32,937 nt of DNA from Ignavibacteriota bacterium (GCA_003154155.1 PMCM01000147.1:1-32937), one strand, 5' to 3'; shown: positions 1-26,213, counted from the stretch's first letter. The notes: generated by a model not told the origin, from the letters alone. Made by a program: numbers and translations.

Positions 1-3000
1 GCAACGATGGGCACATGCCGTCCGTTCTGCTCCCCTTTCCGTATCGCGTTGGTCGCCGTAAACCCATCCATTTCGGGCATTTGACAATCCATGAACACGA
101 TCTGATACGGGATCGACTCCACGGCTTTGACTGCTTCCAGACCATTCGCGACGAGATCGACCCTGCACCCGATTTTCTCCAGCATCTTCCGTGCTACTTG
201 CTGATTCACCGGATTGTCCTCCGCCACAAGCACACGCGTCATGTGGTCGTGGGGAGTCCCGGGCCGTTCGGCCGGCGTTGCACGCTGGCGCTGGGCGATC
301 GCACCGACCTGGAGTCCGAGTGCATGCGACAAGACGCTGAGCAGCGCTCCCTGCTTCACGGGTTTTCCCAGATGTTCGACATACCCTGCATCCTGGAGAT
401 CCTCTTTCCGCATGAACCCGATGGAAGAGAGGAGGACGAGCCGGGGCATCGTGATCGATGGGTTTGCCTTGATCAGGCGTCCAAGAGACAGCCCGTCCAT
501 GTCCGGCATCTGCATGTCTGCGAGGACGAGCGCATACGGATCACCTGCGGCCGTTGCCTCTTCCAGCATCTTGAGCGCCCCTGCCGGAGACTCCACGACG
601 TCGTGGCGGAATCCCCAGGCGGCGAGCTGATGGTGCAGAATTACCCGCGCCGTCTCATTGTCGTCGACACCGAGTATTCGCATGCCCGCCGGAGGAGGGC
701 CGGGAATGGCGTCTGCAACCTGAACATTTTGCTTTGCGAAGACGGCGTGGAAGGTGAATGTACTCCCTTTGCCCTCCTCGCTCGAAACGGAGATTGTTCC
801 CCCCATCATTTCCGTCAGCCGCTTCGCAATCGTCAATCCGAGGCCTGTCCCGCCGAACTTTCGCGTCGTCGAGCCATCCGCCTGCATGAATGCCCGGAAC
901 AACTTGCCACGCGCCTCCGGCGCAATCCCGATCCCTGTATCCTTCACAGCAACGCGGACCACGGCCGAGGTGTCGGTTTCCGACTCCAGTTCCGCCGCCA
1001 CGACAATCTCTCCCTTCTCGGTGAACTTCACCGCGTTGGAGAGGAGGTTCGTGATGATCTGCCGGACCCGGCCCGGATCACCGCGCAGCAAAACCGGCAG
1101 ATCGCTGGGGATGGAACAGATCAGCTCAACGCCCTTGGTCCGCGCGGCGAACGAATGTAAATCCGTGGCTTCTTCGATCGTCGCGCGGAGATCGAAGTCG
1201 ATGATTTCCAGTCCGAGTCTCCCCGCTTCGATCTTCGAAAAGTCGAGAATGTCGTTGATGATCGTGAGGAGGGCATCGCCGGATTTCCGGATCATTTCGG
1301 CAAACTCCCGCTGCTCGTCAGTCAGGTTCGTGTCGAGAAGGAGTCCGGTCATGCCGATCACACCGTTCATCGGCGTCCGGATTTCGTGGCTCATGTTGGC
1401 CAGGAATTCGGATTTGTGACGCGATGCCTCCAGCGCTTCCTCACGCGCCTCGGTCAGCCGCACCGCTTGCTCCGCCAACACTCTGGCCTGGGTTTCCGCA
1501 TCCGCTTTGGCCTTTGCAAGCGTGGCATTGTTTGCCGCCAGCTCGTCCTGGGTCTTTCGGCGCTCGGAGATGTCGCGCAGCGATCCTTCCGTGCCGATGA
1601 TGGCGCCCCTTTCCCCGGTCAGGGCGTGCGCATTGACCGAAGTAAACACCACCCGGCCGTCCTTCGCATGCAACTGGACCTCCATGTCGACAACTTCCCC
1701 CCGTGACCCGATTTCCCGCATCAACGCTCGCCGTTCTTCCGGATGGAGATACAGGTCCTTCACCTGCCGTCCGATCAGCTCCTCGCGCGTGAAGCCCGAG
1801 TACCGGAAAATGGACGGGCTGATTTCGATAATGGTCCCGTTCACATCCGCCTGGAAGAAGACGTCCTGCACATTTTCAAAGATGGCCCGGAATTTCCGTT
1901 CGCTCTCGCGAATCATCTTTTCCGCCCGGCGCCGCTGCGCGCGTACACGCATCACGTAGCCTGCAACAACGAGCAGCCCGATCCCGGCAACACTTTGCAG
2001 GAGGCGGGCCCACCAGGATCGGTACCAGGGAGGGCTCACGCTGAACCGGTACAGTGCGGGCTCGCTCCATTCCATCCCGCTCTGCTGCGAGCGCACCTGA
2101 AGGGTGTACTCCCCCTGCGGAATGCGGGTGATCAACACGGCCGCCGAGGACGACGGTCCGCTCCATTCATCCTGCAGCCCCTGCAGCCGGGTCTGATACA
2201 GGACCTTGTCGCCGGGAAACGAAAGGCAGGAATAGCTCGCATCGAGGAACGTGGCGTACGGGAATGCATGGTCATGAGTTCCATGGACACGAAGCGTATC
2301 GCCGTTGACGGCAAGCATTGTAAAGAGGGGTGACGGGGTCTTGAGGGCATGCGCAATCGGCGCCTGCCAGTATGCAACTCCGTGAGCTGTCCCGACCCAC
2401 ACATGGTGATGATTGTCCACGGCAATCGATCGGTAGGCAATGGTCATGCTCGGCAGACCGTCGCGGCCGTCAAATCGCGTAACCTCGTCGCCGGAGAGTC
2501 TGACCAATCCGTGGGATGATCCCGCCCAGACTGTGCCGGCGCTGTCCACGGCGACTGCTGATGCGCCTGCACCGCCAAGCGCCCGCACACGCGTGTACCC
2601 ACCCGCGGGGGTCATGCCATAGCTCAGGAGACCTTTGCTCGTCGCCAACCATATCTGGCCGTCTCCGCCGACAGCGATATCATGCACCTCGAACCGGCCC
2701 TTGATTGCAGGATCGAGATGCCGCCCGAGATTCTCAAAGCGGTCGCTTGCGGAATCGTACCTGAAGAGAAATGTGGTATCACCCACCCCTCCCGCATAGA
2801 CGCCGGAGCGGCTGTCGCAGCGGACCACATTCACATGCCGTGGAAGTCCTGCCGACCGATCGTAGCGGTGAATGACCCCGTTCTCCGAGATCCTCAGCAC
2901 ACCTTCCAGGCCGTCCATACAAAGCCAGACATCGTTTCTCCCGTCCCGCTCCATGTGCGTGACAAGCCTGTTGCCGACGTCGGGGAGCGTGAACTTGGTA

Positions 3001-4223
3001 ACCACCCCATTGCGGCTGTGGGCGACATAGCCGTCCTTGAACCCGCACCAGAAATCCCCCGCTTCACCCGTCAGGCTCAGGATCAGGCTTTGTGTCTTGC
3101 CCCATATCTCCCGCTGCCGTCTGTGTACGCCATCAAACGCAAGAGCATAGACGGCATCGCCGTCTGTTGCCAGAACCGATTGTCCATCCCCCCGCGTGAC
3201 CGATTCAATGTAGAAATGGGTGTAGGTCAGCGGAAATTCCGAGAGGTAGGTAAGATTCAACAATGCGATCCCTTCATCCGAGCTGACCCAGATGGAACCG
3301 TCATTGCCGAGAGATATCTTGTTGATGACCTGGAATCCGACCTTCTCAAATCGTTCGGCCCTCCCGGTTCCCTGCGACGGAGCGATACGGTACACGCCCG
3401 TTTTCCATGTCCCGACGTACATCTCTCCCGCGGGACCCACCACAATCGAAGAGACATCAGCTATCCGTGCGCGGAGGACGAATGCGGCGCTCCGCAGCAC
3501 CAGGTCGGGCTTGAGTTCATACACGCCGTCGCTGCGGCCAACAAGAATTCGGCCGCCGGACGCCTGTGCCACGGCATTGATGGGACACCTGCCGGTCGGC
3601 CCGGCGATGGATATTTCGATCAGCGCATCACATTCACGGCTGTACCGGAAGAGATACCCCCGCTCGGAAAGGACAAGCATATCGCCGCCCGCCGTTTCGA
3701 CAAATTGAAACGACCTGACATAACTATTCGCCCAGGTCTTCCGTTCCAACGGATAGCGCTTCATGCGGTGGCCGTCGAACCGGACAACAGCGCCCGGCTC
3801 GCTCACCCAGAGACAACCCGAACTCTCCTGAAAGACCGTCTTAGGATAGAATACCGTCGAGTCGGTCGGTACGGCGGCGCCAGGAAGAACCGGAATGAAC
3901 ACCGTGGAGTCGGACCGCGAATCCACGCGATAAATCCCGCGATCGTTGACTGCAATCAGATCGCCGTTGTTCAGCACCACGACATCCTTGACATACTTGC
4001 TTGGCAGGAACTTCTCGAACGAGACAAAATTCCTCCCGTCAAATCGCACAAGGCCGGCATCGGTCGCCGTCCAGATGTACCCGTCGCGATCCTGTGCAAC
4101 AGCTTTCGTCAGATTGGTCGGCAGCCCTTGTTCGAAGTCAAAAGTCGTGACACGAAAATCCTGCGCCGCCGCTGCGTGCACCAGCACGCCCGCCAGCAAG
4201 ACGGTCAGACATCGTCGACACAT
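1..4223 (-). CDS. Hybrid two-component sensor histidine kinase with Reg_prop propeller (3' end beyond window)
   Basis: One uninterrupted minus-strand frame of at least 1407 codons begins at ATG 4223 and is still open at base 1. It encodes a periplasmic ligand sensor joined to a cytoplasmic phosphorelay kinase. Residues 1-21 are a signal peptide (hydrophobic run, then AAAAQ). Repeated propeller blades follow (for example [19 protein letters not shown], typical of Reg_prop), then a Y_Y_Y domain ending near residue 735. One membrane helix lies at about 742-759, a PAS domain at about 775-890, and a coiled linker before HisKA. The H-box [13 protein letters not shown] places the phospho-accepting His at 946. 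The HATPase N-box is near 1058 and DTGIGI near 1093. REC1 starts near 1180 (acceptor D1236) and REC2 near 1328 (acceptor D1379). It is divergent from the operon at 4767. Any Hpt or DNA-binding output would lie outside the window. Confidence 0.95.
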
Positions 4224-4766
4224 GCGATTATGTTGAGAAAGCCGCTCGATCCAATGCAATAGTATCTCTCTGAAAAACGCGTTCCCCCCCGATTCAGGAC
4301 GGAAACCAGCTTTATCCGCCATGTATGGCTGCAATTTCGTGAGTATTTCCATTATCCATCAAAACACCATATATCATGCCAATCAAAAACCGCACGGAAT
4401 GCACGAATGTCTCTCTGCCATACCGCAATTCGCTGATTTTTTGTCCAGCTGTCCATATTTGTTCACCGGCAACCGGGGCATATTGCACAGCAAACCCGGT
4501 TGGGGAAAAAGCACCGCGTTTATGCAAATCTGTCCGGCCTTCCCCGGTTCAACTTGTTTTTCCTTTTCTCATCGCGTACATTATGCTTACGTTTCCACAG
4601 CATCAATGCAGTCTCCATAACCCGCGTAGAACCAAAGCCTTGTCCCGATTGTCGACCACCGCAATCACCACAGACATTGCGTATGGGGCGTAACTATCGC
4701 CGGGACCACGCGTAGAGACCTTCTGAACGGACGGCCCAGCAGCATATATCTGAGAGGATCCAGCAT
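4224..4766. other. Divergent intergenic region, relatively AT-rich
   Basis: This 543-base gap separates the start of the minus-strand sensor kinase from the plus-strand envelope operon. It is visibly richer in A and T than the flanking genes and must hold both divergent promoters. I see no convincing gene: the short open frames here have no family resemblance and no good ribosome binding site. It contains an 8-bp perfect inverted repeat, CAACCGGG at 4470-4477 and CCCGGTTG at 4495-4502, with a 17-base spacer, and a weak promoter candidate at 4554-4582. Confidence 0.6.
4554..4582 (+). promoter_or_regulatory. Weak sigma70-like promoter candidate for the 4767 operon
   Basis: TTGTTT at 4554-4559 and TACATT at 4577-4582 are separated by 17 bases, matching the -35 and -10 consensus at 3/6 and 4/6 positions. 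The following transcript would have a leader of about 175 bases. If the organism uses the Bacteroidota-type promoter (TTTG/TAnnTTTG), this call is likely wrong. Confidence 0.25.
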
Positions 4767-5471
4767 ATGGGACAGAAAGATCTTTTCCTCAAACCTGCTC
4801 CCGACGGCAAACAAGACGCTCCGGCACCCAGCCCGGCACAAAACCTGGAATCGCCGATGCCGGCCCAACGGGATATTCCTCTCCCGGGATCGACTAAAGC
4901 CCTTGACCTGGATCCGGGTCCATTCCTCGAACAGTTGAAAGAGGCAATGGAGAAATCCGATCTTCCGGGACAGCAGACCTATCTCGCCTTTTCGAAGGCT
5001 CTGAGCAATATGGACAAATTGCCGATGGACGAGGCAACGAAGTTCCAGGCCGCATTCGCCACCTTGCAGGCCACCGGAAGCGACGTCAACCAGCTGCTCG
5101 AATCGTTTCACTATTTTGACGGCATCCTCGATGCCGAAAAGGACAAGTTTGAGGAAGCGCTCCACGCAACCATCGGTGATTCCGTCATCAAGAAGGAAAA
5201 CGAGATCAAGCAGCTCACCGATGAGAATGCCGGACACTCGGCGCAGATCCAGCAGTTGACCGAGACGATCTCGGCAAATCAGCGCAACATCGCTGCGCTG
5301 CAGTCCGAACTTGCGGATGTAAATGGCAAGTTGAAGCAAAAAGAGAATAGTTTTATGTCGGCGTACCGCTCGATGAAGGATCAACTTCAGACAGACGCGC
5401 GGAAAATCAACACGTATCTCAGCTCCGCTATCGCAGCGCAGCCGCTTTCAGCCACGAAACACAAAAAGTGA
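4767..5471 (+). CDS. Soluble coiled-coil protein, first gene of the envelope ABC operon
   Basis: A 234-residue hydrophilic protein of unknown function. It has no signal peptide and no membrane helix, so it is probably cytoplasmic. Residues 1-45 are rich in proline and alanine and look disordered. About 48-130 is predicted helical and globular. About 150-220 has heptad-like spacing of hydrophobic residues with many Glu, Lys and Gln, consistent with a coiled coil. The start ATG is preceded by GAGAGGA at good spacing. The next gene begins 10 bases after the stop, so the two are almost certainly co-transcribed and perhaps translationally coupled. The context suggests it partners the coiled coil of the next protein. 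I do not recognise the family. Confidence 0.85.
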   Translation: MGQKDLFLKPAPDGKQDAPAPSPAQNLESPMPAQRDIPLPGSTKALDLDPGPFLEQLKEAMEKSDLPGQQTYLAFSKALSNMDKLPMDEATKFQAAFATLQATGSDVNQLLESFHYFDGILDAEKDKFEEALHATIGDSVIKKENEIKQLTDENAGHSAQIQQLTETISANQRNIAALQSELADVNGKLKQKENSFMSAYRSMKDQLQTDARKINTYLSSAIAAQPLSATKHKK

Positions 5472-5481
5472 GGAGATGAAG

Positions 5482-6531
5482 ATGGCCGACTCGTCGTTGC
5501 TTCCCTCAACGGTCTCGACCGCAGGCATGAAATCGTTCTGGAGCCGTAAAGAAGGAAAGACCGGAATGCTTTTCGCAGCGGCTATTCTTGCCGCTGTGGG
5601 ATACGGGCTGTTCCAGATCCTTCCCTATCTGATCACCATGACGAAGAATCTCTTGACGCTCGGCATTCTGGGCATCTGTCTTTTTGTTCTGGTCTATCTC
5701 GTGATGGATCATCAGGTGCGCACGCTGGTGTGGTATTTGTACAAATCACTGATGCGCGGCATCACCGGGGTTTTCATCCAGATCGATCCCGTGGGCATCA
5801 TCGAGACCTACGTCGCCCACCTCCGGAAGCAGCTGGAGAATCTCGAAAGCCAGATCCAGGAACTTTCCGGGGCGAAGCGCAAACTCTCCGACGCCATTGA
5901 TCGGGCCAAGGAAGAACTCGATGAGCAGTTGAACCTCGCCAAGACCGGCCAGAAGCAGGGTCTCGGGGCAGCCGAGATCACCGTATACACGAACCAGGCC
6001 GGCCGTCTCAAAACCCGGATCGAGAAATATCAGAGCCTCCTCACGAAACTGGATACGCTGTACCGCATTCTGGAGAAGATGGACAAGGCGGCCAAAGTGG
6101 TGATCCTCGACAAGACCAACCAGGTCGAAGACATCAAGATTCAACGGCAGGAAATGCGTACCGGCTTCAATGCGTTCAAGTCGGCAATGAGCATCCTCTC
6201 CGGCGATCCCGACAAGAAGGTCCTCTTCGACCAGGCGATGGAATCCATCCAGAACGACATCAGCATGAAGGCAGGAGCGATGGAGCAGTTCATTGAGGAG
6301 TCGAACGAAGTCATGAGCGCCATCGACCTCCAGAATGGTGCGTTCGAGGAGAAAGGAATGAAGCTGCTGGAAAAATGGGAGAATGAGGGGTTGCCGCTCC
6401 TCCTCACGGACGGTTCTGATCAGAACCGGCCTCCGGACCAGCAGCGCCCGGTGGACGCAAAATTCGTGGAAGTCGCCAAGGATGCCTCGAAGACCGGCGA
6501 CAACTCATACACAGACCTGTTGAACAAATAG
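5482..6531 (+). CDS. Two-helix membrane protein with long PspA-like coiled coil
   Basis: A 349-residue protein. Two membrane helices lie near the N terminus (about 29-51 and 55-75) with a very short connecting turn, so both ends should face the cytoplasm. A long, strongly charged alpha-helical coiled-coil region follows from about 102 to 290, then a polar tail. The opening of this region (DPVGIIETYVAHLRKQLENL) and its hairpin-like helix pattern resemble the PspA/IM30 fold, but this is a resemblance by eye. I chose ATG 5482 over ATG 5476 because AGGAG at 5471-5475 abuts 5476 but sits six bases from 5482. The gene is followed after 26 bases by the SBP-OmpA gene. It could scaffold the ABC complex or remodel membrane. 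Function unknown. Confidence 0.88.
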   Translation: MADSSLLPSTVSTAGMKSFWSRKEGKTGMLFAAAILAAVGYGLFQILPYLITMTKNLLTLGILGICLFVLVYLVMDHQVRTLVWYLYKSLMRGITGVFIQIDPVGIIETYVAHLRKQLENLESQIQELSGAKRKLSDAIDRAKEELDEQLNLAKTGQKQGLGAAEITVYTNQAGRLKTRIEKYQSLLTKLDTLYRILEKMDKAAKVVILDKTNQVEDIKIQRQEMRTGFNAFKSAMSILSGDPDKKVLFDQAMESIQNDISMKAGAMEQFIEESNEVMSAIDLQNGAFEEKGMKLLEKWENEGLPLLLTDGSDQNRPPDQQRPVDAKFVEVAKDASKTGDNSYTDLLNK

Positions 6532-6557
6532 ATCCCCCACCCTGAAAGGCTGCACTC

Positions 6558-8117
6558 ATGAATCGCCTCACTGTCTTTTCGAAAATTCTCGGAGGGCTGG
6601 CGATCGTTGGAATCCTGATTGGCGCCCTGTACTATCTGGGAAAGAACCCCGATGTTGCGGAGAAAATTGCCCCCACGGCGAAACCGGTGTCGGGTCCGGA
6701 GCACAAGGAAGCACGGGCGGACCGGGGTGAGAAGCTCATCGTCGGCATCAACACCTGGGGAGGTTTCGGCGGCGCGGTGTACTTCAACGGCGGATTCAAG
6801 GCTTCCAAAGAGAGCAAATTCTACACGCAATACGGCCAGCTCGTTGAGTTCAAGCTGATCGACGACTTCAACGCCAGCCGGGAAGCATGGAAGAGCGGGG
6901 ATATCGACGTCCTCGGTTTCTGCACCATCGATGCGTTCACCACGGAGATCAACGGCCTGCGACAATTTGAGCCTCAGGTCATCGGCCAGATCGACTGGTC
7001 ACGCGGGGGCGACGCGATCGTCGTGCGCCGCGGCATCAATCAGGTCTCCGATTTGAAGAACAAGAAGATCGCGGTCGCGCCAATGACCCCCTCGCACACC
7101 CTGCTGCTGTGGCTGATGGACGCGGGTGAAGTCAGCTGGGGAGACGTCCAGATTATTCCGGTCGCCAACGGCATCGATGCCGCCGACCTCTTCAAGAAGC
7201 AACAGGTCGATGCGGCAGTGGTCTGGTCGCCTGACGACCAGGATTGCGTTGCCAAGATCGAAGGTTCAAAAGTGCTCGTCAGCACCAAGACGGCTTCGCA
7301 TATCATCGCGGATGTCTGGCTGGCCAAGAAGTCCACCGTGGAATCGAAGCACGACGCACTCAAGGCCTTTGTGGAAGGCTCGCTGAAGGGGAATGGCGCA
7401 GTCAACACCGATGCAGCCGCCCGCAAGGAAGCCGCCGCGCTCCTGGCCGACGGATTCAACCAGCCGGTCGACTTCTGCGTCACGGCAATCGCCAATGCGC
7501 GTCTGGCCACCCTGGGCGACAACCAGGATTTCTTCGACGTCAACGGCAACTTTGCCGGTGTGACCGGCGAGAAGCTGTACACAAAGATGGCCCAGGCATT
7601 TGCGCAAACGAAGGACAACCAGGGACAGTACTATATTAACGGCGCCGTCCCCCCGTGGCGCACCATCGCCTACCCGGCCTTCATCCGCGCAAGCACACTC
7701 TCCGGCCCCGAACAGCTGGCCGAAGGGGGCGCAAAGTTCGCCGCGCCGACACCCGCTATGGCGACCACACCCGCCATCAGCACCAAGAAGGTCACGATCG
7801 AGTTTCCCTCCGGCTCATATACCTTGACTGACGACGCCAAGACCAAAATCGACATGGAGTTTCTTGACCTGGCCAAGGGATTCCGCGAGGCACGCATACG
7901 CATCGAAGGAAACACCGACAACGTCGGCAGCGCCGAGATGAACAAGGAGCTTTCGCGCAAGAGGGCCGTCGCCGTGGCAGCCTATCTCTCCAAATGGTTC
8001 GACCGGAACAGGTTTGTCGTGGTGGGCAACGGCCCGGACAAACCGGTGGCGGATAACGGTTCCGCCGAAGGGCGCCAACGTAACCGCCGCACGGATTTTG
8101 AGATTCTCGGCGAGTAA
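6558..8117 (+). CDS. Membrane-anchored ABC substrate-binding protein fused to OmpA domain
   Basis: A 519-residue chimera. Residues 9-27 form an uncleaved-looking N-terminal helix (ILGGLAIVGILIGALYYLG) that would anchor it in the inner membrane facing the periplasm. About 58-380 is a periplasmic binding domain of the nitrate/sulfonate/taurine (NMT1/SsuA) type (VGINTWGG start, SDLKNKKIAVAP, AVVWSPDD). A Pro/Ala/Thr-rich linker spans about 381-409. Residues 411-517 are an OmpA C-terminal domain with GNTDNVGSAEMN, ELSRKRA and QRNRRTDFEI. D454 and R510/R511 are the expected diaminopimelate contacts. The permease and ATPase follow directly, so this is their binding subunit. Simple importers have a free or lipid-anchored SBP, so a peptidoglycan-binding tether is unusual. 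AAAGG precedes the ATG. The substrate cannot be deduced. Confidence 0.92.
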   Translation: MNRLTVFSKILGGLAIVGILIGALYYLGKNPDVAEKIAPTAKPVSGPEHKEARADRGEKLIVGINTWGGFGGAVYFNGGFKASKESKFYTQYGQLVEFKLIDDFNASREAWKSGDIDVLGFCTIDAFTTEINGLRQFEPQVIGQIDWSRGGDAIVVRRGINQVSDLKNKKIAVAPMTPSHTLLLWLMDAGEVSWGDVQIIPVANGIDAADLFKKQQVDAAVVWSPDDQDCVAKIEGSKVLVSTKTASHIIADVWLAKKSTVESKHDALKAFVEGSLKGNGAVNTDAAARKEAAALLADGFNQPVDFCVTAIANARLATLGDNQDFFDVNGNFAGVTGEKLYTKMAQAFAQTKDNQGQYYINGAVPPWRTIAYPAFIRASTLSGPEQLAEGGAKFAAPTPAMATTPAISTKKVTIEFPSGSYTLTDDAKTKIDMEFLDLAKGFREARIRIEGNTDNVGSAEMNKELSRKRAVAVAAYLSKWFDRNRFVVVGNGPDKPVADNGSAEGRQRNRRTDFEILGE

Positions 8118-8173
8118 CTGCAGACGCACACAGCCAGGCATTCCCCTATTCCGGAACAGAAAGAGCATGATCT

Positions 8174-8956
8174 ATGAGCGACCTGCGCGAACCTCTGCCG
8201 AAACGCACCCACCTGCTGTACGAACTGGGCGGATTGGTGTTCATTCTGGTAGCGTGGCAACTGGTGGCGATGAAAGTCAATTCCATCGCCATCCTCCCCA
8301 CGCCGCTTGAGGTAATCGGATCATTTCCTGAACTGCATTTCCAGGACCTGATCGTCATCAACACCCTGTACTCCATCAAAATCAATCTGCTCGGCTATCT
8401 CTGGGCGATTGTCCTCGCGCTTCCGCTGGGATTCGCCCTCGGTTTGTCTACCCCCCTCGGCGCAATCTTCAACAGGTTTCTCGAAGCGATTCGTTACATC
8501 CCCCTGACCGCGGTGACCGGCCTGTTCATCGCCTGGTTCGGCATCTATATGAATATGAAGGTGCAGTTCCTCGCGTTCGGCATCTTTGTGTACCTCCTCC
8601 CTGTGGTCGTGGAACGCGTCAGAGAGCTCGACGAGGTGTACGTGCAGACCGCGCAGACCCTCGGCGCCAGCAAATGGCAGATCATTGTGAAAGTCTTCAT
8701 TCCGGGCGTCCTCTCACGCGTATCAGACGACATCCGTGTGCTGACCGCCATATCCTGGACCTACATCATCGTCGCGGAGCTGGTCAACAACGAAGGAGGC
8801 ATCGGCGCCCTGATGTTCAGGGCGTCGCGCCAGAGCAGGCTAGACAAGGTGTTCGCGGGACTGTTCGTCATCATCCTCATCGGCATCGTCCAGGACAAGC
8901 TGTTTATCTGGCTCGATCGCCATGTCTTCAAATACAAATATGCGACCGGCACATGA
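8174..8956 (+). CDS. ABC transporter permease, SsuC/TauC/NrtB type
   Basis: A 260-residue inner-membrane protein with about six hydrophobic helices and the binding-protein-dependent permease fold. The cytoplasmic coupling loop is visible as VYVQTAQTLGASKWQIIVKV (EAA motif), followed by SWTYIIVAELVNNEGGIGAL, which is typical of sulfonate/nitrate/taurine permeases. It lies 56 bases after the SBP-OmpA gene, and its stop overlaps the start of the ATPase gene by ATGA. It should form a homodimeric channel with the ATPase encoded next. Sequence does not tell which solute is moved. Confidence 0.93.
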   Translation: MSDLREPLPKRTHLLYELGGLVFILVAWQLVAMKVNSIAILPTPLEVIGSFPELHFQDLIVINTLYSIKINLLGYLWAIVLALPLGFALGLSTPLGAIFNRFLEAIRYIPLTAVTGLFIAWFGIYMNMKVQFLAFGIFVYLLPVVVERVRELDEVYVQTAQTLGASKWQIIVKVFIPGVLSRVSDDIRVLTAISWTYIIVAELVNNEGGIGALMFRASRQSRLDKVFAGLFVIILIGIVQDKLFIWLDRHVFKYKYATGT

Positions 8957-9786
8957 CCGCGACAAACAACGTCATCGAACTGAAAAATGTGTCCCAGTGG
9001 TACACACGGGACAACGGCCAGAGGACCGTCGTCATTGAAGGCCTCGATCTGACCATCGAAGACGTCCCCAAAAAGGGACAGTTCATCTGCCTCCTCGGCC
9101 CTTCCGGATGCGGCAAATCGACGGTCCTCCGGTATGTCGCCGGGCTGCAGAAACCTTCCGAGGGACAGGTCCTGCTGTACGGCAAACCCCGGAAGCCTGA
9201 GGACCATGTCGGCATGGTCTTCCAGCAGTACAGTTCCTTTCCGTGGCTGACCGTGCTCGACAACGTGACGCTCGCGCTGGCGATCAAGGGCGTCCCGAAG
9301 AATGAGCGAAAAGAAAAGGCCATGTCGTACATCCAGGCCTGCGAACTCGAGGAACATGCCGACAAATATGCGCAGTATCCGATTCTGTCGGGCGGTCAGC
9401 TGCAGCGTGTTGCCATCGCCAGAAGCCTCGTGTCGAATCCCAACCTCCTTCTGATGGACGAACCGTTCGGCGCCCTCGATGTCAATACCCGTCTGAAAAT
9501 GCAGGACATGCTGCTCGCCATATGGGAGAGGCTGTGGCACATCAACGATGCCACCACTGTCGTGTTCGTGACGCACGACATCCCGGAAGCGGTCTATCTC
9601 GGGACGGATATCTATATCATGCAGTCGGATCCGGGCAGAATTGCGCACCACCTTGTCATCGATCTGCCGTTCGACAAGACCCGGCAGGTGAAGAGGGATC
9701 CACGCTTCGTGCAATACGTGTACAATATTGAAGATATGATGATGAATGTACCGCAGAAGCGCGGGGCCGAATCCGCGAAGAAGTAA
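8953..9786 (+). CDS. ABC transporter ATP-binding protein, SsuB/TauB/NrtD type
   Basis: A 277-residue nucleotide-binding subunit. Walker A is GPSGCGKST at residues 49-57, the Q-loop lies in MVFQQYSSFPWLTV, the signature is LSGGQLQRVAIARS, Walker B is LLLMDEPFGALD, and the switch His is in VFVTHDIPEAV. The SFPWLTV stretch is characteristic of the taurine/nitrate/sulfonate subfamily. The start ATG overlaps the permease stop (ATGA), so translation is coupled. It is the last gene of the operon and is followed within 20 bases by a strong hairpin terminator. Confidence 0.95.
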   Translation: MTATNNVIELKNVSQWYTRDNGQRTVVIEGLDLTIEDVPKKGQFICLLGPSGCGKSTVLRYVAGLQKPSEGQVLLYGKPRKPEDHVGMVFQQYSSFPWLTVLDNVTLALAIKGVPKNERKEKAMSYIQACELEEHADKYAQYPILSGGQLQRVAIARSLVSNPNLLLMDEPFGALDVNTRLKMQDMLLAIWERLWHINDATTVVFVTHDIPEAVYLGTDIYIMQSDPGRIAHHLVIDLPFDKTRQVKRDPRFVQYVYNIEDMMMNVPQKRGAESAKK

Positions 9787-9804
9787 CGCTTTTCCCAGCG
9801 TCCG

Positions 9805-9838
9805 CAAGCCCGGGACCCGACCCGGGCTTGTCCTTTCT
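9805..9838 (+). terminator. Rho-independent terminator closing the envelope ABC operon
   Basis: A perfect 10-bp GC-rich stem, CAAGCCCGGG at 9805-9814 and CCCGGGCTTG at 9821-9830, has a six-base loop. A T-rich stretch (TCCTTTCTT) follows. It lies 18 bases after the ATPase stop codon. Confidence 0.85.
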
Positions 9839-10073: not shown

Positions 10074-11045
10074 GTGCCGGACGAGAAACCCGTTCCGTCC
10101 ATGAGCTCTGCCGGCACAGTATTCCATATCCAGCGCTTCTCGATTCACGACGGACCAGGCATTCGCACCACGGTGTTTCTCCAGGGTTGTGCGCTAAGTT
10201 GTTTCTGGTGTCACAATCCCGAGGGGAGCACAACACATCCCGTGTTGCAGTTCTACGCAGACCGGTGCACTGCCTGCGGCGCATGCGTGCAGGCATGTCC
10301 GCATCATGCGCACGAATTTCGCGATGACGTGCATCTGTTTCACCGCGAACGCTGCGTCACTGAGGGCGCATGCGTGGAAAGCTGCTTCTCCCAGGCACTG
10401 CTTCTGACCGGCCGTTCCATGACCGTCGCGGAGGTGATGGCCGAAGTGCTGCAGGATACCGCATTTTACGAACGGTCCGGCGGCGGGGTCACCCTCTCGG
10501 GAGGGGAACCGTCGCTGAGCAGCGCATTCAGCGGAGAACTCCTTGCACAGTGCAAGGCCCGCGGGATACATACGGCCGTTGAAACATGCGGCGAGGCGCC
10601 CTGGGCTTCGCTCGCCGACCTTCTTCCGGTCACCGACCTGGTTATGATGGACATCAAGCATATGGTCCCCGACCGGCACCGGGCTGCCACGGGAAAAGCG
10701 AACGACCGGATCCTCGACAATGCCCGGCGGCTTGCAGGCACCGGCAAACCCATCGTGTTCCGCACGCCGGTGGTGCCTACCGTGAATGACACCGAGGAGC
10801 AAATTGCAGACATCGCCGCATTCATCCGGACGTTGATCGATCAGCGTAATGGTTCTGCCGCGCCGCCCGCTGATCGCGCGCACATCCGGTATGAATTACT
10901 GACGTTTCACCGGCTGGCGTCGGACAAATACCGGAGTCTGGGGAGGGAATACCGGGCCGCCACATTGGAACCCCTCCCGAAAAGCCGCATGCAGGAACTG
11001 GCGGACGTCGCAGCGCATCTTGGCGTGGACACCGCGATACGGTGA
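10074..11045 (+). CDS. Glycyl radical enzyme activating protein (radical SAM)
   Basis: A 323-residue activase that would use S-adenosylmethionine and a [4Fe-4S] cluster to generate the glycyl radical on the enzyme encoded next. The radical SAM motif is C39-x3-C43-x2-C46 (GCALSCFWCHNPE), preceded by FSIHDGPGIRTTVFLQG. A ferredoxin-like insert follows. Its first cluster has C65, C68, C71 and C75. The second keeps C94, C100 and C104 but has Glu at 97 where a Cys is expected. The TLSGGEP motif and MMDIKHM are typical of PflA-like activases. Start GTG 10074 has AGGA eight bases upstream. ATG 10101 (residue 10) is an alternative with a poorer site. The stop overlaps an alternative GTG start of the GRE gene, so the two are coupled. 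Confidence 0.93.
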   Translation: MPDEKPVPSMSSAGTVFHIQRFSIHDGPGIRTTVFLQGCALSCFWCHNPEGSTTHPVLQFYADRCTACGACVQACPHHAHEFRDDVHLFHRERCVTEGACVESCFSQALLLTGRSMTVAEVMAEVLQDTAFYERSGGGVTLSGGEPSLSSAFSGELLAQCKARGIHTAVETCGEAPWASLADLLPVTDLVMMDIKHMVPDRHRAATGKANDRILDNARRLAGTGKPIVFRTPVVPTVNDTEEQIADIAAFIRTLIDQRNGSAAPPADRAHIRYELLTFHRLASDKYRSLGREYRAATLEPLPKSRMQELADVAAHLGVDTAIR

Positions 11046-11089
11046 ACGCGCCCTCAGATCCGCCAACTCTTATATCAGGAACATCATTC

Positions 11090-13324
11090 ATGTCGACGGC
11101 ACTTGTGCAGGAGCTCTCTTTCCGCGAACGCATCGCCATGCTGCGCGCCACCAAAATGCGCCATACAGAAGAGAAATGGCGTGAAATCGGCTCGCTCGAC
11201 ATGGACGACCTTCCGATCATGCTTCCGCCGCCGGAGATGCGGAAAATCGTACGGATCGTCAGCGGTTCAGGCATTGTGATCTCCGATGCACTGTTCAGCA
11301 ACTTCATACCCACGAGCAACCACCCGAGTGGCGGATTCTTCGGCGCACGCGCCTGCGGGGAAAACTTTCGCGCTCTCCTGGATATCCACCCGCCGTACGT
11401 CGATCCGGTCAGTTCCCTGGCAGGCGGATATATGGCAAGCTTCCTCGCCTACCGCGATCCCGCCTGGAATCCCGATTGCGACTACGCGCACCTGCACGCC
11501 GAGCAGAATCTCTACAAGCTCCACCACGGCATCGGCGCGGTACAGCACTTCTGCCAGGACATGACCATCGGGTTCCGCCTCGGATGGAACGGGCTTCTGG
11601 ATCAGATTCACCGTTATCGCGGTGTGCAACGCGACGATGAGGCGCAGGAGCTCTACGACGGCCTCGAACAGTGTGTGCTGGGCATCCAGAACTGGATTGA
11701 GCGCCATGCCGCCGCCGCCCGTACCATGGCCCGCGAAGAGATGCGCCCGGAACTGCGGAAGAACCTGTTCGAACTTGCCGAGATGAATGCCGCGCTCGTC
11801 ACACGGCCTCCCGTAACATTCCGGGAGGCTTGCCAGTGGATGTTGTGGTACCAGCTCGCCGCCAAGATGTACAACATGAGCGGATCACTCGGCCGCATTG
11901 ACCAGTTTCTCTATCCGTACTTCGTTGCGGACAAGGAACGCGGAATCCTGACCGACGAAGAAGCGCTTTTCCACCTGGCGTGCTATTTTATCATGGATAC
12001 CAGCTACACGCAGCTCGGCGGACCCGACGCAGAAGGCAACGACACCACGAATCCCCTGTCGTTCCTGGTGCTCGAGGCTGCCCACCTGCTGAAGATCCCG
12101 GTGAACGTGGGAGTCAGCGTCGGCGCACATACCGATCGCCGCCTCCTCCGTCGCGGGGTAGAGATCCTCTTCGAGGACAAGACGGGGATCCCAAAATTCC
12201 TGGGCGTGGACCGCACCAGCGAAGGATTTGCCCGCAACGGCTACCCCATCGCCCTGGGACGCGAGCGCACCTATTCCGGATGCCATTGGTGCGCCATCCC
12301 CGGCAGGGAGTACACCGTCAACGATTGCGTGAAAATCAACCTCCCCGTGCTGTTTGATACTGCACTCCGCGATATGATGAGCGACCCCGCCCTGGAGAAG
12401 AACACAACGGTGCTCTGGGCCAGGTTCACCCACCACCTGCGCCGCGCCGTCGATGTCATCGCCCAAAGTCTTGATTTTCACATGGACCACATGTTCCAGG
12501 TGTATCCGGAGCTGATGCTCGACCTCCTGTGCCATGGACCTATCGAGCGGGGCCGCGACGCATCACATGGCGGCGTGGAATTTTATAATCTGTGCGTGGA
12601 TGCCGCAGGGCTCGCCACGACGGCGGACTCCTTCGCCGCTGTGGAACAACGCGTTGACCGTGAACGGAAGATCACCTGGGTGCAGTTGCGGCAGGAGCTC
12701 GACGCCGACTGGGCGGGCCCGGCCGGAGAACGCACACGCTTGATGATGAAACAAATCCCGCGGTACGGCAGCGGCAGCTCCCGGGCCGACGACTACGGCA
12801 AGATGATCGCCGGATTGTTCACGACCTCCGTCAAGGCAAAGCCCACCCCCCACGGATTTAACATGATCCCCGGCATCTTCTCCTGGGCGGCCAATATCGT
12901 GATGGGAAAGGACGTCGGCGCGACGCCCAACGGACGCCACGCGCAGTCACCGATTTCCCACGGTCCGAACCCGGATCCCGGTTTCCGCAAAGACGCCGCG
13001 CCAACCGCCCTTGCAATCACCGTCGCGGGGATTCAGCCCGGCTACGGCAATACGGCCCCGATGCAAATCGAGCTCGATCCGGGCCTGTCGAAGAACAACG
13101 AAGACATCGACAAGATCGTCGACCTCATCATCACCCATTTTGATCTCGGCGGCACACAAATCAATATGAACATCCTGGATAAGAAAGCCATCCTGGAGGC
13201 ACATAAGGATCCGTCCAAATATCCGGACCTCGTTGTCCGCGTTACCGGGTTCAGCGCTTTCTTTGCCAGCCTGTCTCCCGAAATGCGGCAAATTGTCGTC
13301 GATCGTATTATCGCGGAAGGATGA
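11090..13324 (+). CDS. Glycyl radical enzyme with atypical CHWC active-site loop
   Basis: A 744-residue pyruvate formate-lyase superfamily enzyme. The C-terminal glycyl radical site is RVTGFSAFFASLSPEMRQ with G720. The active-site loop is YSGCHWCAIPGREY with C398 and C401. Characterised GRE dehydratases and many lyases have Gly-Cys-x-Glu here (GCVEP), and pyruvate formate-lyase has two adjacent Cys. This protein has neither, so its reaction cannot be assigned by family rules. I prefer ATG 11090, preceded by AGGA at nine bases, over GTG 11042, which overlaps the activase stop and would add 16 residues. Neighbours are its activase, a UroD-like protein, a sugar-type importer and a kinase-phosphatase fusion. 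No microcompartment shell gene is present. It is oxygen-sensitive by family, which implies anaerobic or microaerobic use. Confidence 0.93.
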   Translation: MSTALVQELSFRERIAMLRATKMRHTEEKWREIGSLDMDDLPIMLPPPEMRKIVRIVSGSGIVISDALFSNFIPTSNHPSGGFFGARACGENFRALLDIHPPYVDPVSSLAGGYMASFLAYRDPAWNPDCDYAHLHAEQNLYKLHHGIGAVQHFCQDMTIGFRLGWNGLLDQIHRYRGVQRDDEAQELYDGLEQCVLGIQNWIERHAAAARTMAREEMRPELRKNLFELAEMNAALVTRPPVTFREACQWMLWYQLAAKMYNMSGSLGRIDQFLYPYFVADKERGILTDEEALFHLACYFIMDTSYTQLGGPDAEGNDTTNPLSFLVLEAAHLLKIPVNVGVSVGAHTDRRLLRRGVEILFEDKTGIPKFLGVDRTSEGFARNGYPIALGRERTYSGCHWCAIPGREYTVNDCVKINLPVLFDTALRDMMSDPALEKNTTVLWARFTHHLRRAVDVIAQSLDFHMDHMFQVYPELMLDLLCHGPIERGRDASHGGVEFYNLCVDAAGLATTADSFAAVEQRVDRERKITWVQLRQELDADWAGPAGERTRLMMKQIPRYGSGSSRADDYGKMIAGLFTTSVKAKPTPHGFNMIPGIFSWAANIVMGKDVGATPNGRHAQSPISHGPNPDPGFRKDAAPTALAITVAGIQPGYGNTAPMQIELDPGLSKNNEDIDKIVDLIITHFDLGGTQINMNILDKKAILEAHKDPSKYPDLVVRVTGFSAFFASLSPEMRQIVVDRIIAEG

Positions 13325-22952: not shown

Positions 22953-25900
22953 TCAGAACCCCCTTCTGTATTTCCCCCCCACTTCATACAGGACGTGCGT
23001 GATCTGTCCCAGCGACGCGCATTCCACGGTATGAAGGAGTTCTTCGAAGATATTCCTTTCGGACAGCGCCGCCTGTTTCAATCGTTGGAGAGCGGCTTGC
23101 GCGTGCGGGGCGTTGCGGGCCTGAAATTCTTCCAGCTGCTTGATCCGTTCCTTCTTTTCGCTCTCCGGCGTTCGCGTGATCTTCATGGACATGTATGGGT
23201 TGTCCGGCTGCTCCTTGACAAAGGTGTTTACGCCCACGATCGGGTAGGCGCCGCTCTGCTTCTGTTCTTCATACAAGAGTGATTCTTCCTGGATTTTCGC
23301 GCGCTGGTACTGGGTTTCCATCGCCCCCATCACGCCGCCCCGCCGTGAGATTCTGTGGAACTCCTCAAGGACCGCTGCCTCCACGAGATCGGTCAGCTCA
23401 TCAACGATGAAGGCCCCCTGCTGCGGGTTCTCATTCTTGACCATGCCAAACTCGCTGGCGAGAATCATCTGTATGGCCATCGAACGGCGCACCGATTCTT
23501 CCGTTGGCGTCGTGACCGCCTCGTCGTATGAATTCGTATGCAGGGAGTTGCAGTTGTCATAATACGCGAGCAACGCCTGCAGCGTCGTCCGGATATCATT
23601 GAAGTCCATCTCCTGCGCATGCAGCGACCGGCCCGACGTCTGAATATGGTACTTGAGTTTCTGACTCTTCTCACTGGCGCCGTATGTATACTTCATGGCG
23701 ACAGCCCAGATCCTGCGCGCGACGCGCCCGATGACCGCATACTCCGGTTCCATGCCGTTGCTGAAGAAGAAGGAGAGATTGGGAGCGAAATCCTCGAGAT
23801 TGATTCCCCTCTGCAGGAAGTACTCTACATAGGTGAACCCGTTCGCGAGGGTGAACGCAAGCTGCGTGATCGGATTGGCGCCCGCCTCCGCGATATGATA
23901 ACCGCTGATGCTCAGAGAGTAATATTTCTTGATGGCGTTCCTGGCAAAATACTCCTGCACATCACCCAGGAGTTTCATGGCAAAGTCAATGGAGAAGATA
24001 CAGGTGTTCTGCCCCTGGTCTTCTTTCAGAATGTCCGCCTGGACCGTTCCCCGTACATTCCGGAACGTCCAGAGCCTCAATTCCTGCAGATCCTGCTCCG
24101 ACAACACCTGTCCGGCCCCTTCCCGCTTCCTCACTTCGCGGTGGTAGGCAACGATGAAATACATCGCCAGGATGACCGGCGCAGGAGCATTGATCGTCAT
24201 CGAGATCGATGTGGAGGGATCGGTCAGATCAAAACCTTCGAACAGGCGGTCCACGTCGTCAATGGTGCAAACGCTGACCCCGCTTTCACCGATTTTTCCA
24301 TACACGTCAGGCTGCGGTCCCGGATCCTCGCCGTATAAGGTGATGCCGTCAAACGCGGTCGAGAGACGTTTCGCCCTGTCGTTTCTGCTGATGTAATGGA
24401 ACCGGGCATTCGTCCTCTCCGGGCTTCCTTCTCCTGCAAACTGTCTGCGGGGATCTTCGGTGACGCGCTTGAACGGGAACACACCGGCAGTGAACGGAAA
24501 GTATCCCGGCAGGTTTTCCGTGTAGTAGTACCGCACGAGATCCTCCCATGACCGGTAGTGCGGCGTGGCGACTTTGGGCACCCTCAGCGAGGAGAGGGTG
24601 TGTGCAAAGAGGTCAATGGTGTGCTCTTCGTCCTGAATCGTGTATGTGATCCGATCCTGGGTGTAGCCCTTTTTCAGATCCTCCCATCCTGCAAGAAACG
24701 TCTGCGTTTCAGCTGTCAGTGTCTTCCAGAAACCGGCAAATTTCTCTTCAAGGGCGGCACGGGCGGGTTCATCCTGCCCGCACAGCGCAATGCTCTCCTG
24801 CAGCGCAAAACAGTGACCCGCGATCTTCGCCTGTTCTTCGGATGCGGCTCGATAGTGATGCACTGTATCAGCAATTTCGGTGAGGTAGTGGATCCTCCGG
24901 CCTCCAATGACACCGAAGTCACGCGCGGGCTCGACCGGCAGGGCTGCCAGGAGACTCTCGTCCACGGCATAATCCCTCAGGTGCCGGCCGCGCAGATGCT
25001 GCAACAGGTCCTTGAAGAGACGGTTCACACCGTGGTTGTTGAACTCGTTGCTGCTCGTTGCGTAGACCGGAAGTTCCCGGGGATCCCCCTTCCCGGTGCG
25101 CGGAGAGACGATGTTCCGGTTTCTGCGGTACTGGCCTGTGACATGCCGGAGTGCATCCTCGGATCCCGTTTTCTCGAACTTGTTGATGACGATATACTCC
25201 GCCATGTCGAGCATATCGATCTTCTCCAGCTGCGACGGCGCGCCGAATTCCGCCGTCATGACGAAGATCGACTGATCGCACACATCGGTGATCTTGCTGT
25301 CGCCCTGGCCGGTGCCGCTGGTTTCCACGATCACCACGTCAAACCCGTGCGCCTTCAGGAGGCCGACGCCGTCGACAATGGCCAGGCTGAGCTCATGGGC
25401 GCTCTCCCGCGTGGCACAACTCCTGAAAAAGACCCTGTCGTCGTAAATATTGTTGTAGCGGATGCGATCCCCAAGGAACGCTCCGCCCGTACGCTTCCTG
25501 GAAGGGTCGACGGCAAGCACGCCGACGGAGATGTCCCGGGAGACCTTGAGGAACCGGTTGATGAGCTCATCGATCAACGAGCTTTTACCGCACCCTCCTG
25601 TGCCGGTCACACCCAGCACGAAGGTTCTGTGCTTATCGGCCTTCTTGCAGAGCTCGCTCAGTTCCGCCAGCGCATGCGGGATGTCGACGAGGCGTTCGAT
25701 GTGCGTAAGCTGCAGGGCGATGTTCCGGTGATCATCCCTGTCGCCCCGGCAGAGCTCATCAGCCGGGTCAAACGGCAAATCGGTCGACGCAGTCTCGCGT
25801 TTCCGGGCATTGACGCGCGCAACAATGTCGTCTGCAATGCCATGGATGCCCATGTGTTGCCCGTCCACGGCGTGGTAGATTCTCTCGACACCGTATGCCT

Positions 25901-26213
25901 GCAGGTCCTGAATTTCCTGGGGGAGGATCACCCCGCCGCCGCCCCCGAATACCAGGACGTGACCGGCATGGTGTTCCCGCAAGCTGTCGACGAGGTAGCG
26001 GAAAAAATCGTTATGGCCTCCCTGGTAGGAGCTCACCAGAACGGCGTCAACGTCCTCCTGCACGGCAGCTGTGACAATCTCCGTCACGGAACGGTTGTGG
26101 CCGAGATGCACGACCTCCGCTCCCCGTTTGTGCATCAACTTCGCGAAAATGCTGATCGATACGTCATGGCCGTCGAACAGCGCTGCCGCCGTAACAATCC
26201 GAATCCGTTGCAT
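22953..26213 (-). CDS. icmF: Fused isobutyryl-CoA mutase-type enzyme (B12 domain, G-protein chaperone, mutase)
   Basis: A 1086-residue fusion, the usual length and order for IcmF. Residues 1-135 bind adenosylcobalamin, with the lower axial His16 in FDGHDVS and the FGGGGGVI loop at about 89-96. About 190-430 is a MeaB-like GTPase chaperone with P-loop GTGGCGKS at 204-211. About 560-1086 is the mutase barrel (YGKIGESGVS, RGTVQADILKEDQGQNTCIF, SISGYHIAEAGA, IQTSGRSLHAQE, SLHTNSYDEA). Members interconvert isobutyryl-CoA and n-butyryl-CoA, and some prefer other branched acyl-CoAs. It begins nine bases after the acyl-CoA dehydrogenase stop, with GGGAG before the ATG, so the two form an operon. QGQNTCIF rather than the MCM sequence argues against methylmalonyl-CoA mutase. 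Confidence 0.95.
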   Translation of the reverse strand: MQRIRIVTAAALFDGHDVSISIFAKLMHKRGAEVVHLGHNRSVTEIVTAAVQEDVDAVLVSSYQGGHNDFFRYLVDSLREHHAGHVLVFGGGGGVILPQEIQDLQAYGVERIYHAVDGQHMGIHGIADDIVARVNARKRETASTDLPFDPADELCRGDRDDHRNIALQLTHIERLVDIPHALAELSELCKKADKHRTFVLGVTGTGGCGKSSLIDELINRFLKVSRDISVGVLAVDPSRKRTGGAFLGDRIRYNNIYDDRVFFRSCATRESAHELSLAIVDGVGLLKAHGFDVVIVETSGTGQGDSKITDVCDQSIFVMTAEFGAPSQLEKIDMLDMAEYIVINKFEKTGSEDALRHVTGQYRRNRNIVSPRTGKGDPRELPVYATSSNEFNNHGVNRLFKDLLQHLRGRHLRDYAVDESLLAALPVEPARDFGVIGGRRIHYLTEIADTVHHYRAASEEQAKIAGHCFALQESIALCGQDEPARAALEEKFAGFWKTLTAETQTFLAGWEDLKKGYTQDRITYTIQDEEHTIDLFAHTLSSLRVPKVATPHYRSWEDLVRYYYTENLPGYFPFTAGVFPFKRVTEDPRRQFAGEGSPERTNARFHYISRNDRAKRLSTAFDGITLYGEDPGPQPDVYGKIGESGVSVCTIDDVDRLFEGFDLTDPSTSISMTINAPAPVILAMYFIVAYHREVRKREGAGQVLSEQDLQELRLWTFRNVRGTVQADILKEDQGQNTCIFSIDFAMKLLGDVQEYFARNAIKKYYSLSISGYHIAEAGANPITQLAFTLANGFTYVEYFLQRGINLEDFAPNLSFFFSNGMEPEYAVIGRVARRIWAVAMKYTYGASEKSQKLKYHIQTSGRSLHAQEMDFNDIRTTLQALLAYYDNCNSLHTNSYDEAVTTPTEESVRRSMAIQMILASEFGMVKNENPQQGAFIVDELTDLVEAAVLEEFHRISRRGGVMGAMETQYQRAKIQEESLLYEEQKQSGAYPIVGVNTFVKEQPDNPYMSMKITRTPESEKKERIKQLEEFQARNAPHAQAALQRLKQAALSERNIFEELLHTVECASLGQITHVLYEVGGKYRRGF

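Follow-up and report, generated by a model that had tools for sequence, protein, structure and literature searches.

We describe here a five-gene operon in a 32,937-nt stretch of DNA from an Ignavibacteriota bacterium (GCA_003154155.1, PMCM01000147.1:1-32937; hereafter the window), which is part of a 4.24-Mb Ignavibacteria-type genome. Between positions 4767 and 9786, five tightly spaced open reading frames (ORFs) of the plus strand encode two coiled-coil proteins (cc1 and cc2), a chimera of a substrate-binding protein (SBP) and an OmpA-like domain, a permease and an ATP-binding cassette (ABC) ATPase. The same five genes, in unchanged order, are found in records that bear phage hallmarks, and the group qualifies as a huge-phage module. 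In the reading that we prefer, to which we give about an even chance, it encodes an ABC importer that is tethered to peptidoglycan and equipped with its own PspA-type scaffold, a module carried by huge phages and common to some bacteria of the Bacteroidota group. The parts are of known kinds; what is new, provisionally, is the assembled and phage-carried module. We found no description of it in the main texts of huge-phage papers or in the literature searched, a provisional result as supplements lay outside the search and subscription papers were largely absent from it.

The five-gene order recurs in huge phages and in bacteria

The order cc1-cc2-chimera-permease-ATPase, all on one strand, was found in over 35 loci of phages and cells. 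It was observed in the Lak megaphages Lak-B7 and Lak-C1 (the two, of 540 and 551 kb, in which the order is shown), in a 735-kb phage, in the 462-kb LR756500 and in 29 distinct IMG/VR contigs, one of which is included despite a broken chimera. Among annotated phages, a search with cc2 returned 17 records, namely 15 of 15 Lak Prevotella megaphages (540–552 kb) and two records of the 735-kb phage. The corresponding search with the chimera returned the same 17 together with Bacillus phage G, and a second query added LR756500. IMG/VR was scanned twice (19 and 27 loci); 11 of the approximately 37 distinct contigs from the two scans exceed 200 kb, the largest reaching 452 kb. A terminase profile scored above its cut-off in eight of the records, and the shorter IMG/VR contigs are fragments whose viral label rests on IMG/VR itself.

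The distribution in bacteria is patchy: cc2 is present in 4 of 98 genomes of the window's order, all within its family, and in 9 of 198 genomes of the wider phylum. All five genes were found in two close relatives of the window and, in the same order, in the Hymenobacter-like genomes of family f32 (L048 and L049). A Saprospiraceae metagenome-assembled genome carries cc1-cc2-chimera on one contig and the permease and ATPase together on another. One contig filed as viral (L083, IMGVR_UViG_2627853892_000001) is probably chromosomal, its flank being the same as that of bacterial L048, and was tallied as cellular; its viral label may perhaps stem from this very module. No plasmid-borne cc2 was found. 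For the window copy, which is part of an Ignavibacteria chromosome, membership of a prophage was ruled out, the genome having no terminase match and the neighbouring genes being metabolic.

Genomes of another family (f28) carry cc1-cc2 pairs or cc2 alone, and the two that were examined have no close permease. Thus the coiled-coil pair is a unit of its own, with the transporter as its frequent partner. Such transporter-less pairs, up to two per genome, were noted in L039, L044–L047 and L051.

The first-pass annotation, made from the sequence of the window, had described a tight operon closed by a terminator, and had named a lack of conservation of the coiled-coil genes beside the transporter as a refuting result; such a lack was not observed. 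The ORFs, domains, transmembrane (TM) calls, terminator-like hairpin and recurring order bear out a single conserved module, and synteny in both phages and cells places the coiled-coil genes next to the transporter: cc1 and cc2 belong to the module and are not ornaments. It had not foreseen that the module resides mainly in huge phages and viral contigs, nor that cc1-cc2 pairs exist without a transporter.

For the majority of genes in the largest phages, no role has been assigned. Conservation of a five-gene order across very divergent huge phages makes it unlikely that this module is idle. An importer and a wall anchor are encoded here in one operon with a PspA/ESCRT-III-type domain, from which we predict that huge phages remodel the host envelope in addition to the cytoplasm.

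cc2 carries a PspA/Vipp1-like domain behind a transmembrane hairpin

Hydropathy gave two TM segments for cc2 (residues 29–47 and 57–75, numbered from ATG 5482), one for the chimera and none for cc1. The soluble part of cc2 had been called PspA-like in the first-pass annotation, a remark that proved to reflect a real remote homology. Starting from an alignment of 53 cc2 homologues, hhalign aligned this part with PspA/IM30 over 220 collinear columns (probability 94.7%, E 5.8e-8). The controls stayed low: 0.7% and 3.0% for reversed alignments, no more than 8.8% for 20 heptad-block shuffles, and 0.2% for TelA. Independently, a search collecting PspA sequences yielded a match of Pfam PspA_IM30 to one cc2 homologue (E 9e-4, model positions 22–195). 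At 19.6 bits this match is under the gathering cut-off of 33.9 bits; cc2 of the window is not among the PspA_IM30 matches, and the profile has no match in the window's own genome. An AlphaFold model of cc2 shows the TM hairpin followed by helices 103–158, 163–236, 244–280 and 290–308, and a Foldseek search with this model returned VIPP1 (7o3x) and a phage PspA/IM30, both with prob 1.00.

PspA/Vipp1 (IM30) proteins are bacterial members of the ESCRT-III superfamily (PMC8281802). Judged by these profile and model comparisons, cc2 is remotely homologous to them and joins their domain to a TM hairpin; it is, by homology, a membrane-anchored PspA-type protein whose activity is predicted only. It resembles PspA/Vipp1 in the collinear profile homology of the soluble domain and, going by the model, probably in its helix layout, and differs by the hairpin placed in front, by its setting in an ABC operon and by a score below the Pfam cut-off.

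The neighbouring cc1, conserved beside cc2 in phages and cells, consists of a disordered N-terminus, a small three-helix part and a helix of about 117 residues. We also considered cc1 and cc2 as relatives of TelA (PF05816), and rejected this for both in view of the lack of profile similarity.

The chimera links a substrate-binding domain to a putative peptidoglycan anchor

On a single chain, the chimera matches the OmpA (6.9e-17) and NMT1 (6e-8) profiles. Two residues of the OmpA domain, D454 and R469, are invariant across the class of chimeras of about 500 aa, phages included; of 43 chimeras drawn from the two size classes, 40 have the strict OmpA motif, and the remaining three retain the Asp and the Arg. 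In OmpA proteins these residues bind diaminopimelate. With a TM helix at its N-terminus and an OmpA domain bearing conserved peptidoglycan-binding residues, the chimera should therefore span from the inner membrane to the wall. The anchoring and peptidoglycan binding proposed at first reading are accordingly supported, as expectations from conserved residues. The plan is that of MotB/ZorB and Pal-type anchors, inner-membrane- or lipid-anchored proteins held on peptidoglycan via OmpA, with the difference that the OmpA domain of the window chimera bears a solute-binding domain. PHROGs already lists the chimera as phrog_25518, function unknown.

The transporter core is distant from characterised importers

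Profile searches identified the permease (BPD_transp_1, 2.8e-18) and the ATPase (ABC_tran, 1.1e-28). All 50 ATPases examined, near-duplicates counted, keep the Walker A and signature motifs, and a strict pattern finds Walker B in 46 of them. A BPD_transp_1 permease, an ABC_tran ATPase with its motifs and an NMT1/SsuA-type SBP together place the core among type-I ABC importers of the Ssu/Tau/Nrt cluster.

A rather unlikely alternative is an ordinary importer of a sulfonate-, nitrate- or taurine-like anion, auxiliary metabolic in phages, where OmpA would simply park the SBP and the coiled coils would only organise or stabilise the transporter. Such an importer would agree with the SBP, permease and ATPase being nearest to Ssu/Tau/nitrate systems and with ATPase motifs that are always intact. 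Yet all three proteins score far under the curated cut-offs of those systems, none of which was reached (SsuA_fam 69.7 of 163.5 bits, TauC 87.8 of 342, Tau ATPase 197.6 of 357, SaoP permease 130 of 295). In addition, cc1-cc2 is also found without a close permease, and nothing in the ten neighbouring genes examined points obviously to a metabolism of sulfonate or nitrate uptake. Compared with SsuABC, TauABC and NrtABC, the module thus shares a homologous permease, ATPase and SBP fold, and differs by the TM-anchored fusion of SBP to OmpA, by two extra conserved helical proteins, by its low scores and by carriage in huge phages.

Proposed mechanism and alternatives

In the preferred reading, which draws on parts, gene order, motifs, homology and distribution as deduced from sequence, the operon products would assemble into one inner-membrane complex around the type-I ABC importer core. 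The PspA-like domain of cc2 would lie on the cytoplasmic face, polymerising or scaffolding round the transporter, with cc1 as the likely partner of cc2. The transporter would be fixed at the junction of membrane and wall and would import a small solute, anionic or zwitterionic. The benefit, both to a huge phage during a lengthy infection and to bacteria retaining a copy, would be an inner membrane that is supplied and mechanically intact.

An alternative to which we give about one part in four of our confidence is an envelope machine of a new kind, carried into the cell by huge phages: the wall-anchored, ATP-driven ABC core would control a membrane-embedded ESCRT-III-like polymer, and solute import would not be its main task. 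The machine would keep the inner membrane intact while a long infection lasts, and bacteria would have captured it more than once.

We consider it unlikely that the complex is instead a phage envelope guard, holding membrane and wall together against superinfection or premature lysis, of which the bacterial copy would be a domesticated form acting against phages or membrane damage. Presence in huge phages and the PspA homology of cc2 are consistent with such a role, as is the remark in a huge-phage paper that membrane or surface proteins may influence infection by other phages (PMC7162821). A solute importer core would be superfluous in such a guard. Moreover, comparison with PADLOC defence families revealed similarity only to MotB-type OmpA, to generic ATPases and to coiled coils, and no match over most of a protein; on this comparison a known anti-phage defence system was rejected.

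Finally, the chimera might read a solute or the status of the wall while the ABC core signals to the PspA-like protein, signalling prevailing over transport. The doubly anchored receptor points in this direction, as does the hybrid sensor kinase encoded divergently just before the operon, whereas no regulator was seen conserved with the module in phage neighbourhoods and the ATPase motifs are fully conserved; we regard this as very unlikely.

Probable exchange between phages and bacteria

In a tree of the chimera, cellular copies fall in three places among phage copies. The Ignavibacteria chimeras join viral contig L077 (support by the Shimodaira–Hasegawa-like approximate likelihood ratio test, SH-aLRT, of 98); the flanks of L077 contain homing and HNH endonucleases. 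A single clade of all cellular chimeras was rejected (p 5.8e-7), chiefly since both deep classes of the chimera have cellular members, while a clade of Ignavibacteria and Saprospiraceae chimeras was not (p 0.185). The natural way to read these results is that phages and bacteria have exchanged the module.

Several observations count against the importer with a built-in scaffold, or against parts of it. The chimera falls into two deep classes, of about 500 and 600 aa, with unlike binding domains, and a single common ligand is therefore unlikely. For cc2 alone, one clade of cellular copies was not rejected (p 0.12). The cc2 model is of middling confidence (predicted local distance difference test, pLDDT, 66.7), VIPP1 and CdvB2 are among its top PDB matches with E of only 0.04–0.05, and its Foldseek matches include BAR and axonemal coiled coils as well, which are unrelated. 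A structural search with cc1 gave no fold match, and the topology of cc2 is inferred.

Variant clusters with the same plan

Bacillus phage G, a giant phage that has long been known and can be cultivated, carries, in one block (L094, 3534–10619), a permease (gp243), an ATPase (gp245), two helical proteins (gp246 and gp247) and two SBP-OmpA chimeras (gp249 and gp250). These are the same kinds of component as in the window module; the gene order differs, and gp246 and gp247 have no detectable homology to cc1 or cc2. The 595-kb phage LR756511 encodes chimera-vWA-chimera-two-TM coil-coil protein-SBP-permease-ATPase (L138, LR756511.1 308000–330000, 2610–11172, minus strand). As homologues of cc1 and cc2, the helical proteins of phage G and LR756511 were rejected, no similarity being detectable; they are positional analogues only.

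The LR756511 cluster mirrors that of Vibrio plasmids, with an unrelated coiled-coil protein in the slot of TelA. The latter, a TelA-vWA-SBP/OmpA-ABC cluster on plasmids of 240–320 kb (L058, 4775–14146, and L059) labelled 'phosphate ABC transporter substrate-binding/OmpA', resembles the window module in its SBP-OmpA protein, permease, ATPase, two-TM coil protein and soluble coiled-coil protein. It differs in that TelA replaces cc1/cc2, to which it has no profile similarity, and in its additional vWA protein and several SBPs; no functional description of it was found in the literature searched. A third arrangement (L117, 6923–12513, and L120, 6969–12299) comprises, in this order, a helical protein with an N-terminal FVD motif, a chimera, a permease, an ATPase and a two-TM-like membrane protein.

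The variants of phage G, LR756511 and L117/L120 share a recurring plan; their helical proteins have no detectable homology to cc1 or cc2. Cultivable entry points are Bacillus phage G for the variant and the bacterial copies for the operon itself.

Operon anatomy and neighbouring genes

The coordinates of the operon and its features are given in Table 1. The permease and ATPase genes overlap at ATGA. For cc2 we prefer ATG 5482 to 5476 as start codon; it lies 7 nt after AGGAG and corresponds to an invariant M among homologues. No RNA element was found in the window.

Table 1. Features of the five-gene operon, in window coordinates
Feature	Position	Strand	Description
cc1	4767..5471	+	234 aa; soluble coiled-coil protein
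cc2	5476..6531	+	351 aa; TM hairpin and PspA/Vipp1 (ESCRT-III)-like domain; probable start 5482
cc2, two TM segments	5566..5706	+	hydropathy; helices in predicted model
cc2, PspA-like domain	5764..6405	+	hhalign against PspA/IM30
SBP-OmpA chimera, TM-anchored	6558..8117	+	519 aa; domain profiles
Chimera, N-terminal membrane anchor	6573..6629	+	residues 6–24; without lipobox cysteine
Chimera, SsuA/TauA/NMT1-type substrate-binding domain	6807..7448	+	SsuA_fam 2.3e-19; taurine-binding 6ssy 5.4e-7
Chimera, OmpA-like putative peptidoglycan-binding domain	7803..8087	+	PF00691 62 bits (cut-off 27.2); D454, R469 conserved
Permease (BPD_transp_1)	8174..8956	+	260 aa; profile match
ABC ATPase	8953..9786	+	277 aa; Walker A, signature and Walker B intact
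Intrinsic terminator-like hairpin	9804..9831	+	stem of 11 pairs, 8 G-C

Directly upstream and divergent from the operon lies the gene of a large hybrid sensor kinase with regulator-propeller, PAS, kinase and receiver parts (window 3–4358, minus strand). On the 3′ side, a glycyl-radical enzyme and its activase (window 10074–13324) both score under the cut-offs of all named equivalogs. Further on, a fused isobutyryl-CoA mutase, IcmF (1582 bits; window 22953–26213, minus strand), adjoins an acyl-CoA dehydrogenase.

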